A DNA stretch of 64,000 nt from Acidobacteria bacterium 13_1_20CM_3_53_8. Lineage in GTDB: Bacteria; Acidobacteriota; Blastocatellia; Pyrinomonadales; Pyrinomonadaceae. Of this stretch, positions 33,983 to 41,616 are shown one piece after another. The stretch's first letter is position 1. Each line of letters starts with the position of its first letter. A model generated the notes under the pieces. It saw only the letters and a program-made list of their open reading frames with translations, searched no databases and was not told where the DNA came from. The position numbers and the translations under genes are program-made. The stretch covers positions 74,636-138,635 of the forward strand of contig MNJR01000139.1 in NCBI GenBank assembly GCA_001920415.1, given 5' to 3'.

Positions 33983-34771
33983 ATGCAACTCATCCTCGAC
34001 AAAATCATCGTCACGGACGTGCCCGCCAATCTGGCGCGCGCGCGTCTAATCAACATGCTGCATAGCAGCCAGAATTCATGCACTTCCACCGTCATCAACG
34101 GGCGCGCTGGCACTGGCAAGACAACGCTCGCCGCAAGCTTCGCGCGAAAGTGCGGAAGACGCGTAGCGTGGTACAAGGTGGATGCGGCGGACTCGGAACT
34201 GAAAATCTTCTTCCGTTACCTGATAGAGAGCGTGCGCGGAGAGCGTCCAGATTTTGACGGTGACGCGCTGATAGAGTTGGCCCAATCGGCCACGCTCGAA
34301 GATATACCTATGCTCGCCGAAGCATTTATCTATGAGTTGCAGGAGCGCGGCGGAGAGCCGCTCCTGATAGTGATTGAAGACCTTCATCTGGTCTATGACG
34401 CAGACTGGGTCGTGCCTTTCTTCCGCCGCCTTCTGCCTCTGCTTCCCGCAGACGCGCACATGCTGATTACAGGAAGAAGTCTGCCGCCCGCGCCGCTGTG
34501 GCGCATGCGCTCGAAGCAGACGCTCTGTGTCATTGAAGAGCAGACGCTCTCGTTCACAGTGCAGGAGGCGAAGAGACTTTTCGCGCGATATGGGCTAACG
34601 GAAGCGCAGGCTCGCCGCGCGCACGAAGAGACGCACGGTCGCGCCTATTCTCTTGACGAGATTGCAAGACTGTTAGCCGCATCCGATAGTAGCAGAGCAG
34701 AGAAGCCGTTAGTTCCGCGCCGCAAGCGAAAGATGGCTTTCATAAAGCAGCTTCACGGCTACTGCCTCTGA
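33983..34771 (+). CDS. Stand-alone MalT/STAND-type ATPase domain protein
   Basis: 262 residues. Walker A is G40-R-A-G-T-G-K-T-T48 and Walker B is LLIVIEDLHLV. FRRLLPLLPADAHMLITGRSLPPAPLWRMRSKQ matches the same region of the large regulator encoded next (IIVSRDLPPLALSRLRSQSS), so the two are paralogous. It has no TPR, winged-helix or other output domain and ends in a basic tail (PRRKRKMAFIKQLHGYCL). It may modulate the neighbouring regulator by mixed oligomers, or be a truncated duplicate. Confidence 0.75.
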   Translation: MQLILDKIIVTDVPANLARARLINMLHSSQNSCTSTVINGRAGTGKTTLAASFARKCGRRVAWYKVDAADSELKIFFRYLIESVRGERPDFDGDALIELAQSATLEDIPMLAEAFIYELQERGGEPLLIVIEDLHLVYDADWVVPFFRRLLPLLPADAHMLITGRSLPPAPLWRMRSKQTLCVIEEQTLSFTVQEAKRLFARYGLTEAQARRAHEETHGRAYSLDEIARLLAASDSSRAEKPLVPRRKRKMAFIKQLHGYCL

Positions 34772-34876
34772 AGGGATGAAGGATGAGGGATGAGGGATGA
34801 ATAAGAAGGAGTGAATAGGTCAACGTGCAATTGACTTTATCTTACTCATCCCTTCGCCCTCATCCCTCATCCCTTC
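34770..34876. repeat. Family I inverted repeat (GGATGAGG type)
   Basis: GAAGGGATGAAGGATGAGGG...GAATAAG (34770-34805) faces its complement (34841-34876). It lies exactly between the two paralogous ATPase genes. Confidence 0.8.
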
Positions 34877-34953
34877 GTTGGCGTAGCTTGCGAGTCCAAC
34901 GCTGTGCTAATCTCGATGAAAATCTTCCTGAGCTAGCGAGGCAGCAGAGGACG

Positions 34954-37900
34954 ATGCCTACTAGGCCGCGCCGCCCTAACACAATAGAAAGCCGCGAGAA
35001 CGAGCACGCAGGGAATTCTACCGTCTCGCTCAGAAGTCATGCTGCGCAGCCAACATTCTTCCTGCGCACAAAGCTTCTGCCGCCGCGACCAGCGCCGGAA
35101 CTTCTGCCGCGCCCGCGCCTGACCGAGAGACTTCAAGCAAACGTTGCTCACCCTGTCACACTTGTCACCGCTCCCGCAGGCTCAGGTAAAACAACTCTTG
35201 TAGCAGACTTCGTACGTAAACACGCCCAACAATTCGTCTGGTATCAACTGGATCACACGGACGTAGACCCATCTGTTTTTCTAGGTTATCTCGCGCACGG
35301 CATAGGTCAGGCTGTCGCAGGCTTTGGCGATGTGACCTTCTCATATTTGCAGCAGGCTGCGGGCGAACTTGCACAGCAGCCTGAGCGAGCCGTTGACGTG
35401 ATGCTCAACGAAGTTTTGGAGACCGTCGAGCAGCAGTTGATCGTTGTATTGGACGATTATCATCACCTGGGCACGGAGACTCCAGTTCATGCGGTCGTTG
35501 ACAGATTGCTGGCGTACCTGCCGGATGTCTTGCATGTCATTATAGTCTCGCGCGATCTGCCGCCGCTTGCGCTCTCGCGCCTGCGTTCGCAATCATCGCT
35601 CGCCATAGTTGACCGCGCCGAACTGCTCTTCACGGATGAAGAGACGCAGGAGCTTTTCCGCAAAGTCTTTGATCTTGAATTGACTCCCGAACAACTTCAG
35701 GAATATCGAGAGCGCACGCACGGTTGGATCACTGCGCTTCAACTCGTGCGTCAGGTCGCACATCGTCAGGCGTTTGAGCTGGGAGGGACGGCTGCGCCCG
35801 ACCTCATAGAAATCCTGCGCCAGAGTGAGCGCGACATCTTCGACTACTTCGCGGAAGAAGTTTTCGCGGACGAGCCTGAAGAAGTTCAGCAGCTTTTGCC
35901 GCGCCTCTCTCTGCTTGAACGATTAGAGACGGAGACGTGCGCCGCGCTCTTTCCAGATTCGGACTGCGCGCGACAGTTGCCAGCGCTCGTTCGCCGCAAC
36001 GTCTTCATCACCGTGGCGAGCGACGGGCGCGGCGAAGAGTATCGTCTGCACCCGCTCTTTCAAAGTTTCCTGCGCCGCCGCTTTAGGACAGAAACGGGAA
36101 TGGCTGGCGTTGCTGCGGAGCATGCGCGATTCGCAGACTATTTTCTTTCACGCGAGCAATGGGAACAGGCCATGCGCAACCTATTAGGCGCAGAAGATTT
36201 TGAGCGCGCGGCGAGCGTCATAGCGACGCGCGGGCAAGATTGGATGTCTTCCGGCGCGATTCTCTCGCTGGCAAAGTTTGCTGCATCGTTGCCTGCGCCA
36301 GCCTTGGAAGCGCATCCGCGCGCGCTGGCATATCAAGCGGAGGTCGCGCGGCTTCAGGGAGATTACGCTACGGCGCAGGCGCTCTTTCGTCGCGCGGCCA
36401 TTCTGCTTCACGAAAAAGGGGACGGCGAAGGCGAGGCCGAAGCGCTGCATTCATTGGCAACGATTGCGCGCAGGCGCGACCAGTGCGAAGAGGCTTTCAG
36501 CTATCTTGATCGCGCGGTCGAGTTGACGTATGAAAATTCGAGCGTGCGCATCAAGTGCGGCAACACGCGCGGGCTTTGCCTTATGGCTACGGGCGAATTG
36601 GCGGCAGCCGAGCGCGAGTTTCGCGCAGCGCTTCAGACGGCAGAGGAGCAGGGCGACGAGCATTACGCCAGATTGATTGCGCACAATCTTGGCTTGCCCG
36701 CAGCGATTCGCGGAGACTTCGGCGAAGCGTTGCGTTGGACTCGGCGCATGCTGCGCGAAGATGAACAGGCCGCGCCAGTGCCGCAGGAAGCTACTGGACA
36801 TCTGAACGTTGCGCGCTTTCTTCTTTATCGCGGCGATTTTGAAGCCTGCGAAACACATCTTGATCGTGCGCTTGAACTCAGCCAGTTATTCAGCCTGACG
36901 AATTTGCGCGGCGAGATTTTCGAGACCTACGGTACGCTCTACCGCGAGCGTGGCGATGCCGCGCGCGCGACAGAGTTTTATGAGCGCTCGGCGCGTGCTT
37001 ATGATGACGCGGGGCTTGACCTTGCGCGAACTGAGTTATGGGAAGAGCAGGCTCAACTCTATTTGCAAACCGGAAATCTTGTGACCGCGCGCTCTCTCCT
37101 TGATCGTCTTGCAACGGCGCGCGCTGGAATGAACGATGAGATGAAGCGGCACACAGCAGGACTCGCGCGTGGTCGTGTGATGCTTGCGCAGGGCGAACAC
37201 GAAGCTGCAAGCGCAGAGATTAATCCCACGCTACAATATTTTCACGCTCACGGGCTTCACTATTATGAAGCGCAGGCATCGCTTGCGCTCGCCGTCTGTG
37301 ATCTGGCCGAGGGGCGCGAAGGCGAGATGCTTGAGCACATGCGCCGCGCGCTCGATCTGGCCGCGCGCTACGATTACGAATACTGGCTCAAGCGAGAGCT
37401 TGCGCGTGGGGCGCTCGCGCTTACGTCAAACACGGACGCTGCGGCGCTCCTGCCCGCAGACTTGCGCGAGCCTCTGACGGTTCAACCCGTGCCGCAGATT
37501 CAAGCGGCGCAAGCCCACGCGGTCGCTACAGTAGCAGCGCAGCCCATAACAGACCTGACCATCAACATGCTCGGGCCTGTAGAGATTTTCCGCGACCCTG
37601 CGCGCCCGCTCGCAGCAGATGCGTGGGTGACGAAACGCGCGCGAGACATTCTCTGCTTCATAGCATCGCGCCGCCATCGCCGCGCCTCCAAAGATAGCAT
37701 CATTGACACATTCTGGGGCGAGACGGATTTCGACGCCATTGAGAAGAACTTTCACCCGACCATCTCGCACATACGCAAGGCGCTCAACAGCAATCAGGCT
37801 TTAAAGCAGAATTTTCTGCTCTACCGCGATGGCGATTACCAGTTGAACCCGGAGTTCTCTTATCGAATAGACACGGAAGAGTTTGACCGATTAGTTTTGG

Positions 37901-38316
37901 AAGGCGAGCAGGCTCGACGAAGCCGCGAGTTCACGCGCTGCATAGATGCTTACGAACGGGCTATAACGCTTTATCGCGGCGAGTTCATGCAAGGGAGCTA
38001 CGACGAATGGGCTGAAGAGCAGCGCTCCTATTATCGAGAAAAACATTTGCAGATGCTCGTAGCGCTCGCAGCAGTGGCGCAGAGCGCCGAAGAGTGGACG
38101 CGCTCGCTCGAACTCGCGCAGGAGATTTTAAGGGATGACCCGTTTCGCGAAGACATACACTGCATGATAATGCGCGCGCACGCAGCGCTCGGAAATCGCA
38201 TGGCCGTCAAAGAGCAGTACGAATCTCTGCGCCGCCTGCTCAAGAAGGAGTTGGGCGTTGAACCTGTAGCAGAGACGCAGAAGGTTTATCAGGAATTGAT
38301 TGAAAGTCAAAAGTAA
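34954..38316 (+). CDS. AfsR/SARP-type regulator: STAND ATPase, TPR array, winged helix and BTAD domain
   Basis: 1120 residues from ATG 34954 (AGAGGA upstream). The longer reading frame starts inside a repeat and is rejected. Order: a MalT-like N-terminus FLRTKLLPPRPAPELLPRPRL, Walker A A73-P-A-G-S-G-K-T80, Walker B IVVLDDYHHL, HPLFQSFLRRRF at the end of the ATPase, and TPR-like helical repeats over about 430-850. LTINMLGPVEIFRD...KRARDILCFIASRRHRRASKDSIIDTFW is an OmpR-type winged helix, and a C-terminal bacterial transcriptional activator domain ends KKELGVEPVAETQKVYQELI. A large ATP-dependent transcription activator; the regulon is unknown, though the following subtilase is a candidate. The final residues SQK and stop lie in repeat A6. 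Confidence 0.9.
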   Translation: MPTRPRRPNTIESRENEHAGNSTVSLRSHAAQPTFFLRTKLLPPRPAPELLPRPRLTERLQANVAHPVTLVTAPAGSGKTTLVADFVRKHAQQFVWYQLDHTDVDPSVFLGYLAHGIGQAVAGFGDVTFSYLQQAAGELAQQPERAVDVMLNEVLETVEQQLIVVLDDYHHLGTETPVHAVVDRLLAYLPDVLHVIIVSRDLPPLALSRLRSQSSLAIVDRAELLFTDEETQELFRKVFDLELTPEQLQEYRERTHGWITALQLVRQVAHRQAFELGGTAAPDLIEILRQSERDIFDYFAEEVFADEPEEVQQLLPRLSLLERLETETCAALFPDSDCARQLPALVRRNVFITVASDGRGEEYRLHPLFQSFLRRRFRTETGMAGVAAEHARFADYFLSREQWEQAMRNLLGAEDFERAASVIATRGQDWMSSGAILSLAKFAASLPAPALEAHPRALAYQAEVARLQGDYATAQALFRRAAILLHEKGDGEGEAEALHSLATIARRRDQCEEAFSYLDRAVELTYENSSVRIKCGNTRGLCLMATGELAAAEREFRAALQTAEEQGDEHYARLIAHNLGLPAAIRGDFGEALRWTRRMLREDEQAAPVPQEATGHLNVARFLLYRGDFEACETHLDRALELSQLFSLTNLRGEIFETYGTLYRERGDAARATEFYERSARAYDDAGLDLARTELWEEQAQLYLQTGNLVTARSLLDRLATARAGMNDEMKRHTAGLARGRVMLAQGEHEAASAEINPTLQYFHAHGLHYYEAQASLALAVCDLAEGREGEMLEHMRRALDLAARYDYEYWLKRELARGALALTSNTDAAALLPADLREPLTVQPVPQIQAAQAHAVATVAAQPITDLTINMLGPVEIFRDPARPLAADAWVTKRARDILCFIASRRHRRASKDSIIDTFWGETDFDAIEKNFHPTISHIRKALNSNQALKQNFLLYRDGDYQLNPEFSYRIDTEEFDRLVLEGEQARRSREFTRCIDAYERAITLYRGEFMQGSYDEWAEEQRSYYREKHLQMLVALAAVAQSAEEWTRSLELAQEILRDDPFREDIHCMIMRAHAALGNRMAVKEQYESLRRLLKKELGVEPVAETQKVYQELIESQK

Positions 38317-38667: not shown

Positions 38668-41616
38668 ATGAAAAATGTTATGCCCAGAGATTTGAGGCGA
38701 CTCCTCGCTCTCATGCTCGTAGTCTTGCTCTGCGCCGCGCCCATCAGCGCAGGCATCACTGTCACCGGCGCTGATGGAATAACCGTTACGGGCGCAGACG
38801 GCATTACTGTCACAGGCGCTGACGGCATCAACTACATTCACACCAACGGCATCACCGTCACAGGCGCAGACGGCATACTCTCTTTCTCACCAAACGGCGT
38901 TACAGGCATAACTCCCAGTGGCATTACGGTCACAGGGGCAGACGGCGGCACGTACGCTGGCGCGAACAACATCAGCGCCACCAACCCGGACGGCATCACT
39001 GTGACCGGGGCGGACGGCATCACCGTTACAGGCGCTGATGGAATTACAGTAACGGGCGCAGACGGCACACGCTACAGCGCAGACTCTGTTGACTTCAGAA
39101 CGCCGAACGGAATCACCGTTACGGGCGCTGATGGCATTACTGTTACGGGCGCAGACGGCATACAGCATGCTGGTTCAGATGGCATCACAGTCACTGGCGC
39201 TGATGGCGCAGGGTTGACCAAAGTTAACGGCATCACTGTAACGGGCGCAGACGGCGTCACTGTGACGGGCGCAGATGGACGCACCTTTAACATATCGCCG
39301 AGCGGCATAGTGTTGGCGGGCGTTGACCGTGTGATGATGTCTAAGCCTGTGGGCATAGTTGTGACGGGCGCTGACTCTATCATCGCTACGGGCGTGGACG
39401 CGCTCAGCGCACTTGCAAACGAAGTGGCGGGCGCAACCGGACTAAGAAGTATTGACCCGGAACTGGCCGTGCTACTTAACACGGACAGCCTGACGGACGA
39501 TAGCAACATCAACGCGGTGGTCGTCTATCACCAGATGCCCACAGACAGCGACCTGCTAGACCTTCAGCGCATAGGCATACTTGGCGGCACGCGCTATCAC
39601 GCGCTTCCCATGATCGCAGTGACGGGCACGCGCGACCAGATAACGCAAATCTCCAAGCTGGCAGCAGTGCGCTCTATCTACGGCAACCGCACGCTGCAAT
39701 CGAACATTGATCCTATAATTCGCGCCGTCACAGGCGAAGACCGCGCGACCCGCGATGCAGACCTGACGCGCAAGAACGGCGGGCTTCCTGTTTCTGGACA
39801 CAACGTCACCGTCGCTGTGCTGGACACAGGCATTGATGGAACACACAACGACTTTTCTGGCCGCATGATTCAGAATGTAAAGCTCGCAGACACGCAGAGC
39901 GTAAGCGCCGCTTTCGTCGCAGGCGTTATAGCAGGAGATGGCACGCGCTCTGGAGGCAAGTACAAGGGCGTGGCTCAGGGCGCGCGTATTCTTGGCCTGA
40001 GCGCTGGCGATCTTACTTTGAGCTTCGTGCTTTCCGGTTTCGATTATCTTCTTGCGAACGGCGCTAATTACAATCCGCGCGTAGTCAATTGCAGCTTTTC
40101 GGCCAATACGGTCTTCGACTTCAACGATCCCGTGAACGTCGCCACAAAGATTCTGACGGATCGCGGCATCAACGTTGTCTTTTCTGCTGGCAACGCAGGC
40201 CCCGGACTACGTTCTTTGAATCCTTACGCGGTCGCGCCCTGGGTCATCAGCGTGGGCGCAACCGACGAGCGACAGCGAATAGCAAGCTTCTCATCGCGCG
40301 GCGATTTCGGAAGCGCACTGTTTCATCCGACTCTGGTAGCGCCGGGCGTAAACCTTGTGAGCCTTCGCGCATCAACGATTGCGAGCGTGACGGGTGTGAC
40401 CGGCATAGCGCCCGGCGTAGATACGCAGAAGCTTTCGGCAAGTGAACTTCCCTATTACACGACTGCGAGCGGGACAAGCTTCACAGCGCCGCAGGTCGCA
40501 GGCACTATAGCGCTCATGCTTGAAGCGAACCCTGCGTTAAAGCCCGCTCAAATTCGGGACATACTTCAACGCACGGCGACTCCGCTTCTTCCTTATTACG
40601 AGCATGAGGTCGGAGCCGGAATGCTCAACACTCACGCTGCCGTTTTAGAAGCGGCGTTCGCGCAGCGTCACATGGGCTTCTGGCGCGCGGCGCTTGATCG
40701 CGGCCAGTTCTCATTCGTCAATGATGATCCGCAGGAGTTTTCAGGCACTGTGACGAATCAGAGCAACAACTTCAGCATCCCGTTGCAAGTTCCAGAAAAC
40801 ACCGTGGTCGCTTCCGTGCAAATCGCCTGGGGGCCGGATAATTCAAACAACGACCTTGACCTTTACTTTTATGATCCAAGCGGCGTGGATCAATCGGACG
40901 CGACCGCGTTGAACCAGCCGGGCTTGACCGGAAGACGCGAGCGCGCAGTCGTGACTATGCCGCAAGCTGGCGCGTGGACGGCGCGCGCTACGAACAAACT
41001 CGGCGCGGCTGGCTCGCCGCAATCTTTCACGGGCGTGTTTGAGTTGACGCGCGTAGCTTACGCGCAGCTTCTTGACATAAATGATCTGAGCGCGACGCAG
41101 CGCGGCGAGATTTATCAGGCACTCAGAACTTACACAATGTTTCCGTTCGGCTCTTACTTTAGACCGAACAACGTGGTCTCGCGGCTAGACCTCGCTGCGG
41201 CACTGGTGACGGGCGCGCGCGTGCCGCAATACCTACCGGCGCAATCGCGTTTCACAGACGTGCGCGACGCAACGACCGACGCATTTGTAGAGAGCGTGCA
41301 ATCTTCGCCAAGCGGCGCGCTCTTTTACGACGCAACGCCGGGCAGCACTTTCCGACCGGACGATCAGGTGACTAGGCTAGTTGCGGCTGTCGCGCTCGTT
41401 CGCGCGCTTGGGTTGCAGCCCGATGCGACCAGCACTTTGCCGCCAACATTGACGGACGCCGCAACGATTCCAACAAGCTGGCGCGGCTTCGTAGCCCTTG
41501 CTTTGCAGAACGGATTACTCAACGCCGACAACAACACCTTCCGCCCGCAGGCATCGCTTACGCGAGCGGAACTCGCGCACGCGCTTGCGATGATTACAAA
41601 GATTCAAAGCAGGTAA
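38668..41616 (+). CDS. Exported subtilase (S8) with octapeptide-repeat N-terminus and SLH-like C-terminus; catalytic His missing
   Basis: 982 residues. Signal peptide 1-28. Residues 29-245 are about 27 octads with consensus GITVTGAD. The S8 domain is about 376-660, with D386 (VAVLDTGIDGTHND), oxyanion N508 (FSAGNAG) and S604 (SGTSFTAPQ). Family members have GHGTxVAG before IAGDG; here the text is VKLADTQSVSAAFVAGVIAGDG, so the HGT motif and the loop before it (probably 15-30 residues) are absent while the frame is kept. A pre-peptidase C-like beta domain (about 690-830) and three SLH-like motifs (FRPNNVVSRLDLAAAL, FRPDDQVTRLVAAVAL, FRPQASLTRAELAHAL) follow. Probably attached to the cell envelope. 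Without His it should not be a normal serine protease. Confidence 0.87.
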   Translation: MKNVMPRDLRRLLALMLVVLLCAAPISAGITVTGADGITVTGADGITVTGADGINYIHTNGITVTGADGILSFSPNGVTGITPSGITVTGADGGTYAGANNISATNPDGITVTGADGITVTGADGITVTGADGTRYSADSVDFRTPNGITVTGADGITVTGADGIQHAGSDGITVTGADGAGLTKVNGITVTGADGVTVTGADGRTFNISPSGIVLAGVDRVMMSKPVGIVVTGADSIIATGVDALSALANEVAGATGLRSIDPELAVLLNTDSLTDDSNINAVVVYHQMPTDSDLLDLQRIGILGGTRYHALPMIAVTGTRDQITQISKLAAVRSIYGNRTLQSNIDPIIRAVTGEDRATRDADLTRKNGGLPVSGHNVTVAVLDTGIDGTHNDFSGRMIQNVKLADTQSVSAAFVAGVIAGDGTRSGGKYKGVAQGARILGLSAGDLTLSFVLSGFDYLLANGANYNPRVVNCSFSANTVFDFNDPVNVATKILTDRGINVVFSAGNAGPGLRSLNPYAVAPWVISVGATDERQRIASFSSRGDFGSALFHPTLVAPGVNLVSLRASTIASVTGVTGIAPGVDTQKLSASELPYYTTASGTSFTAPQVAGTIALMLEANPALKPAQIRDILQRTATPLLPYYEHEVGAGMLNTHAAVLEAAFAQRHMGFWRAALDRGQFSFVNDDPQEFSGTVTNQSNNFSIPLQVPENTVVASVQIAWGPDNSNNDLDLYFYDPSGVDQSDATALNQPGLTGRRERAVVTMPQAGAWTARATNKLGAAGSPQSFTGVFELTRVAYAQLLDINDLSATQRGEIYQALRTYTMFPFGSYFRPNNVVSRLDLAAALVTGARVPQYLPAQSRFTDVRDATTDAFVESVQSSPSGALFYDATPGSTFRPDDQVTRLVAAVALVRALGLQPDATSTLPPTLTDAATIPTSWRGFVALALQNGLLNADNNTFRPQASLTRAELAHALAMITKIQSR
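38752..39402 (+). repeat. Octapeptide-encoding repeat GITVTGAD within the subtilase gene
   Basis: About 27 units of 24 bp. Twelve encode exactly ITVTGADG and one VTVTGADG; they alternate with variable octads such as GINYIHTN, GILSFSPN and GIQHAGSD. The exact peptide copies use many different codons (for example ggcatcactgtcaccggcgc versus ggaataaccgttacgggcgc). Regular Gly spacing with alternating small and beta-branched residues suggests a beta-solenoid. Confidence 0.9.

Follow-up and report, generated by a model that had tools for sequence, protein, structure and literature searches.

The closest described parallels to the system considered here are the RRNPPA peptide pheromones of the Bacillota, whose propeptides contain 1-4 copies of a pheromone of 5-10 residues. 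Extracellular proteases do the cutting, import is by Opp, and the pheromone is then bound by a tetratricopeptide repeat (TPR) receptor whose gene lies next to that of the propeptide (PMC11343458). Tandem recognition repeats that are alike within and different between species are described for the VERL egg-coat repeats of abalone, the counterpart of sperm lysin, and are thought to drive partner change (PMC2704960, PMC3567151). A repeat within a protein is normally closer to its orthologous position in other species than to the units beside it, or else it is a recent DNA copy; comparing horizontal and vertical dN/dS, Persi et al. found protein repeats under purifying selection that are conserved between species and diverge within the protein (PMC5120217). 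Here we describe an array of octapeptides that follows the reverse rule, uniform within the protein and different between species. It lies in a subtilase gene of Acidobacteria bacterium 13_1_20CM_3_53_8 (Pyrinomonadaceae), in a stretch of 64,000 nucleotides (contig MNJR01000139.1, positions 74,636 to 138,635) that we refer to as the window. Each lineage's word behaves as if it were that lineage's own password, and is possibly a repeated signal peptide.

The gene (38668..41616, as all features of the window on the + strand) is an open reading frame of 982 residues with matches to Peptidase_S8 (E 2.1e-37) and to the S-layer homology (SLH) domain (E 1e-9). Its array (38752..39399) starts at residue 29 (nucleotide 38752) and consists of 12 exact copies of GITVTGAD (at residues 29, 37, 45, 61, 85, 109, 117, 125, 148, 156, 172 and 188), one GVTVTGAD, one GIVVTGAD, and variable and degenerate octads; the near copies follow the exact ones, with VTVTGAD at residue 197 and IVVTGAD at residue 230, and degenerate octads continue until about residue 244. 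A preliminary description of this DNA had counted thirteen octads, twelve of them exact, which is right, and had them alternate with variable octads. The variable spacers are real; strict alternation is not, as the words stand in runs of 1-3 and the 8-residue register moves by one at residue 148, behind a 15-residue spacer.

The scrambling of synonymous codons reported in that description is confirmed: all 12 exact units differ in their DNA, and their mean codon difference of 4.64 of 8 compares with 4.80 expected if each codon were drawn independently according to the codon usage of the gene itself (ratio 0.97, z -0.6). Synonymous divergence is not low across the 14 word-like units (Nei-Gojobori pS 0.64, dS 1.45), and nonsynonymous divergence is small (pN 0.025, dN 0.026), where pN is conditional on resemblance to the word because the units were picked by pattern. 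A linkage test gave no significant sign of copying among the 12 exact copies (p 0.18), nor did neighbours resemble each other more than other units did; a search of the organism's own genome (E<=10) recovered the window locus alone and no second array. The ratio of pN to pS together with the codon saturation argues for strong selection on the exact peptide. The window array is genuine, and recent tandem duplication does not account for it.

Arrays of this kind, which the preliminary description had proposed to look for in other proteins, are found in many relatives. A profile of array plus propeptide had matches in 51 of the family's 119 genomes and in 60 of the class's 162 (E<=1e-8), part of these matches spanning the propeptide only. 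With a profile of the array alone, 15 of 396 genomes from a phylum-wide sample matched, every one in the window's class; among 34 candidate stretches from viral contigs there were no relatives. The 35 named loci are from metagenome-assembled genomes of Acidobacteriota, many labelled Pyrinomonadaceae or Blastocatellia. For comparison, 53 distinct arrays from the window's class were kept, leaving out the window's own copies (L001, L002, L092), L010 (a fetched stretch lacking the array), duplicates sharing DNA, and L094, a longer reading of the contig of L013, which itself fell out by length-first de-duplication.

Over these 53 arrays 684 of 832 units carry the exact word of their array (median exact share per array, 0.89), and the top words number 24, among them GITVTGAD, GIVMTGAD, GITLTGAD, GIQVTGAD, GLSLTGAD and GVTATGSD. 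Over residues 2-7, units of one array share 5.59 of 6 and units of different arrays 4.00 of 6, with L068 lowest in uniformity (3.86); in 39 arrays pN is 0-0.13 and pS 0.31-0.81. Units are thus more alike within than between genomes, as in concerted evolution; the DNA-level homogenisation that goes with that term is lacking, half of the arrays, the window's included, being close to saturation at synonymous sites. In total, these data describe peptide-level concerted evolution under strong constraint. Given that the peptide is uniform per protein and different between lineages while its codons are scrambled, selection for the sameness of copies can be studied here free of recent DNA copying.

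In a tree of the arrays, computed without L054 (motif not found), most members of one large clade keep GITLTGAD, and the window's clade switches words often. Outside the array, the three relatives L021, L114 and L111 share 80-86% identity, yet they have GLSLTGAD, GVVMTGAD and GVTFTGAD, respectively, each 11 times, with identical spacer places in all three; across relatives, spacers keep both their sequence and their register. Close relatives thus switch all copies together, while spacers and protease diverge normally. Of the earlier proposal of long-term selection on the peptide, the selection, the codon saturation and the absence of recent duplication stand for the window; conservation between lineages does not, as the words are rewritten in concert. 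A lone GLSLYGAD unit in L114 may be left over from the word of L021. Two loci, L019 (genome G004) and L055, have mixed arrays in which two or three words, differing at position 4 (V/A/T or I/V/A), stand partly in blocks, and were possibly caught in the middle of a switch.

How words switch was followed in 16 close pairs by comparing codon identity at matching unit positions with its permuted level. The two closest same-word pairs have kept a positional codon memory (L076/L122, 0.65 vs 0.45 permuted, p 0.0002; L003/L008, 0.55 vs 0.45, p 0.011), which argues that units were not shuffled there. Even where the residue did not change (G/T/G/A/D), no such memory is left in L021/L114 (0.60 vs 0.62 permuted; 0.82 in the rest of the protein) and L012/L066 (0.55 vs 0.56; rest, 0.71), and also in L021/L111, L114/L111, L032/L071 and L015/L072, where the test has less power. 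The other 8 pairs showed no significant memory; five have mixed or related words and three the same word (L004/L011, L047/L048 and L020/L046, with L047/L048 saturated throughout). In L021/L114, dS is 0.66 in the words, 0.34 in the spacers and about 0.27 in the protease; an excess in the words is also seen in the same-word pair L076/L122 (0.63 vs about 0.36).

Switched units without positional codon memory beside a normal record in spacers and protease suggest that words are rewritten as whole units. Codons are linked inside units in 13 of 49 arrays (p<0.05; the 49 are those of the 53 with at least six exact copies), neighbouring units are more alike in 8 of 49, and columns have codon preferences of their own (T3/T5 in 15 of 30, G1/G6 in 12 of 45), all of them signs that DNA copying has contributed to array evolution. 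Such traces are kept in other arrays; for the window copy, recent tandem duplication is not supported. Codon diversity matches independent draws in 25 of 49 arrays, the window's among them, and is lower than expected in 24 (z<=-2). Most simply, whole units are rewritten on rare occasions, probably by copying, and strong purifying selection then holds the exact peptide for long periods. Independent parallel substitution may nevertheless be a route of switching, in keeping with the serine of the L021 word, which is encoded by both TCN and AGC codons.

The array sits at the front of the pro-region in the modelled architecture. Residues 1-28 (38668..38751) read as a signal peptide, with a charged start, a hydrophobic core and the array directly after. 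Between array and catalytic domain, residues of about 277-373 (39496..39786) are modelled as a pro-subtilisin-type propeptide, with an AlphaFold2 predicted local distance difference test score (pLDDT) of about 90 over most of its length. VIA-align placed the window model on pro-subtilisins (3afg_A, Z 36.8, 358 residues aligned, root mean square deviation 3.0; 2zwp_B, Z 32.2, 321 aligned, 2.9); this fold search covered mainly model residues 250-625 and so carries no information on the array. Propeptide and catalytic domain are held in common with 3afg and 2zwp, whereas the window protein adds the N-terminal octad array and a C-terminus with a PPC-like region (residues 708-773, 40789..40986; 17.8 bits, below the Pfam cut-off of 25.9) and an SLH domain (PF00395; residues 929-970, 41452..41577). 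The one SLH stretch scores 38.6 bits against a cut-off of 20.8 and, with the signal peptide recognized by reading only, places the protein among SLH-anchored surface proteins. The catalytic domain (PF00082; residues 377-650, 39796..40617) has the Asp and Ser motifs of Peptidase_S8; at residues 411-416 (39898..39915) the catalytic-His segment of its relatives is absent in frame. GHG[TS]F is present in 47 of the 48 arrays that bear an S8 domain, the window copy being the sole exception, so that the family as a whole has the S8 catalytic motifs; the window protease looks inactive or mis-assembled, either because activity was truly lost or because the assembly is wrong here.

Upstream of the array gene lie genes for an AAA_16 ATPase of 262 residues (33983..34771), conserved beside array genes, and for a regulator of 1163 residues (34825..38316) in which Pfam recognizes AAA, a TPR/MalT-like region and BTAD. 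Such an AAA-TPR-BTAD regulator adjoins the array gene in 33 of 34 distinct loci, generally with the ATPase of about 260 residues (counted by hand in loci with at least 4.5 kb upstream, allowing one small gene between, as in the GITLTGAD clade). In loci with at least 3.5 kb downstream, an SBP_bac_5 gene (OppA/DppA-type) follows in 8 of 33, and 6 of those 8 also have Opp-type permease genes. The full order of ATPase, regulator, array-subtilase, SBP, permease and OppC-type permease is found in L156, which belongs to a different family within the class and whose array protein has no SLH part. Two genomes (G019, G135) have two loci each, with different words and a separate regulator for each. When, with no correction for shared ancestry, the divergence of the TPR region was divided by that of the rest in 58 close pairs, the top three ratios (3.93, 3.15, 2.37) all belonged to word-switch pairs. 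Two side observations concern the regulator. In loci of the GITLTGAD clade, L054 included, the regulator pair is divergent and a gene for an exported protein of about 300 residues without a Pfam match separates it from the array gene. In L155 (9112-10302, - strand) a short array of six GVVLTGAD units with propeptide is fused in frame to the apparent BTAD end of a linked regulator, possibly a relic or else a fusion joining array and regulator.

We infer that each word is read by one specific partner: if one partner reads the word, every copy must match it and all copies change together when the partner changes. Based on the gene neighbourhood, which points to a signal or recognition peptide rather than to the binding site for a surface ligand proposed in the preliminary description, our leading reading, held tentatively and unproven, is that the word is a signal peptide present in many copies, which the linked TPR regulator senses. 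In this scheme, (i) the pro-region would be exported and then cut off as the subtilase matures, (ii) the octapeptides would be set free from the array, (iii) an Opp-type transporter would import them, and (iv) the TPR domain of the adjacent regulator would sense them, akin to RRNPPA pheromones with 10-22 copies instead of 1-4. Within-array identity, whole-word switches, the position in the pro-region, regulator linkage, importer genes, the small multi-copy proteins described below, the separate regulators of G019 and G135, and the top TPR ratios in switch pairs would all fit such a signal.

Several points weigh against it. In 25 of 33 loci, the window's among them, no importer gene adjoins the array gene. 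Over 30 loci, in statistics that ignore shared ancestry, the distance between words is weakly related to that between TPR regions (partial r 0.154, p 0.086) and more to that of the subtilase (0.29) and the propeptide (0.27; both p 0.018), with -0.14 for AAA, 0.01 for the BTAD part and -0.28 for the C-terminal part of the protease gene; the word-switch pair L033/L066 shows no TPR excess (1.35). Self-processing may be doubtful in the window copy, which has no catalytic-His segment. An SLH anchor is unusual in a signal precursor, conserved spacers and register with tight constraint on each copy suit a folded array better than peptide dosage, the words of the small proteins differ from the array word of the same genome wherever both are seen, and octapeptide, cleavage and binding are all computational proposals.

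The resemblance to RRNPPA systems is one of logic. Rap-Phr, PlcR-PapR and AimR-AimP share with the present loci a secreted precursor with constrained short repeats, maturation by extracellular protease, an oligopeptide permease, a neighbouring TPR receptor gene and specificity for their own peptide (PMC11343458, PMC9765709). In contrast to the 1-4 copies described there, most arrays here have about 10-22 octapeptide copies; the precursor is fused ahead of a subtilase, and the hosts are Acidobacteriota, not Bacillota. Instead of an RRNPPA propeptide of 50-120 residues beside its receptor we find a 982-residue protease fusion, which does adjoin a TPR regulator, and instead of an N-terminal helix-turn-helix or helical bundle with 5-9 TPRs the putative receptor, of roughly 1100-1170 residues, has AAA, a TPR/MalT-like region and BTAD, unlike the Rap/PlcR type. 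By receptor architecture and precursor the system thus falls outside the family definition. The wider proposal of a peptide-signalling system of the Acidobacteriota, in which a subtilase carries a pheromone array in its pro-region, pherotype words co-evolve with an AAA-TPR-BTAD receptor and small multi-copy propeptides take part, we regard as unlikely in its entirety. If the words are signals, a species-specific peptide language would be readable in these abundant and little studied soil bacteria and testable with synthetic octapeptides. In the open-access literature searched we found no report of ITVTGAD and none on Acidobacteria peptide pheromones or quorum sensing with tetratricopeptide receptors, and nothing among the matches listed concerned such octapeptide SLH subtilases of Pyrinomonadaceae.

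Alternatively, and a possibility that we take seriously but consider doubtful, the octads may stack on one another as a beta-solenoid or amyloid-like ladder, perhaps as an SLH-anchored stalk or adhesin. Here identical residues would have to stack, within or between molecules, and copies would for that reason be kept identical and change together. Words and spacer octads alike tend to have G1, D/N/S8 and hydrophobic residues in alternation; position 4 may be bulky or small and is yet uniform within any one array, and in mixed arrays it is shared above expectation at a distance of 16 residues (pooled p 0.004; six distances were tried). Among 31 members, weak similarity (E<=1) to the beta-helix families DUF2345 (13 members, best E 3e-7) and NosD (11 members, best E 2.1e-6) was found. 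The beta-helix of the VgrG/gp5 type (DUF2345) has an octad periodicity; the window copy, however, is far under the Pfam threshold, lacks a confident model and stands in another protein context. AlphaFold2 models of the window construct (array pLDDT about 30) and of the array of one relative modelled by itself (48) are all-beta with an 8-residue periodicity, at a confidence that leaves the beta-solenoid of the preliminary description unconfirmed. A three-octad coil of 24 residues, suggested by array L006, was looked for and not found in mixed arrays (pooled p 0.41), and a search of the PDB by sequence gave no convincing match (best E 0.065, a tail fibre). Moreover, the exact identity of exposed residues exceeds what a solenoid usually needs, and stacking leaves the linkage to a TPR regulator and a peptide importer unexplained.

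A third reading, which we consider quite improbable, is that the intact array binds an extracellular ligand, a host or matrix molecule or the partner of another cell, by avidity as in VERL. Words that are uniform within and switched between arrays are what one specific partner would lead to, and the protein is secreted and SLH-bearing. Against this, no partner was found, the relative L156 has no SLH part, and the array is in the pro-region, which subtilases normally remove. VERL repeats are long domains homogenised at the DNA level, whereas the units here are 24 base pairs long, identical as peptides and scrambled in their codons.

Least probable, and disfavoured as the sole cause, is DNA-level concerted evolution with a functionally loose word, in which unit copying homogenises and codons drift since the last copying: it fits the linkage, the alike neighbours, the column preferences, the reduced codon diversity of 24 arrays and the memory lost at word switches, but 25 of 49 arrays stand at independent draws though most units keep the exact word, and drift without selection would scramble the peptide too, so that selection must hold the word while copying may do the rewriting. 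A role of AAA ATPase and subtilase in anti-phage defence of the IetS-like kind was also tried and is disfavoured because the protein is secreted and SLH-bearing; PADLOC matches were weak (IetS, E 0.0016; generic subtilase model, 7.5e-23).

Secreted proteins of about 95 residues with short repeated words occur in the same family (L161, L191-L209; 20 looked at), where they were found via a stand-alone match. Each has its own word 2-6 times, again with differing codons, and the 14 top words include GIIVAG, GIIIAG, GIVPVG, GIIINS and GIIITD. By a script count the C-terminal hexapeptide is present at least twice in 14 of 20; L192 ends in a word held twice that the pattern of the script missed. Of the 20, four were scanned, and none of these matched Pfam or NCBIfam significantly. 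A protein of about 750-880 residues is adjacent or one reading frame off in 18 of the 19 loci in which the small gene was detected, the loci being mostly from one genus with a shared gene order; the large neighbour in L191, the only one scanned, is a GGDEF-EAL protein. The small proteins look like pheromone propeptides or an amyloid former. Tandem octads are also seen in L159 (1754-3709, - strand), where a protein that reads as Clostripain-like has KLAGQEGS units unrelated to the array words.

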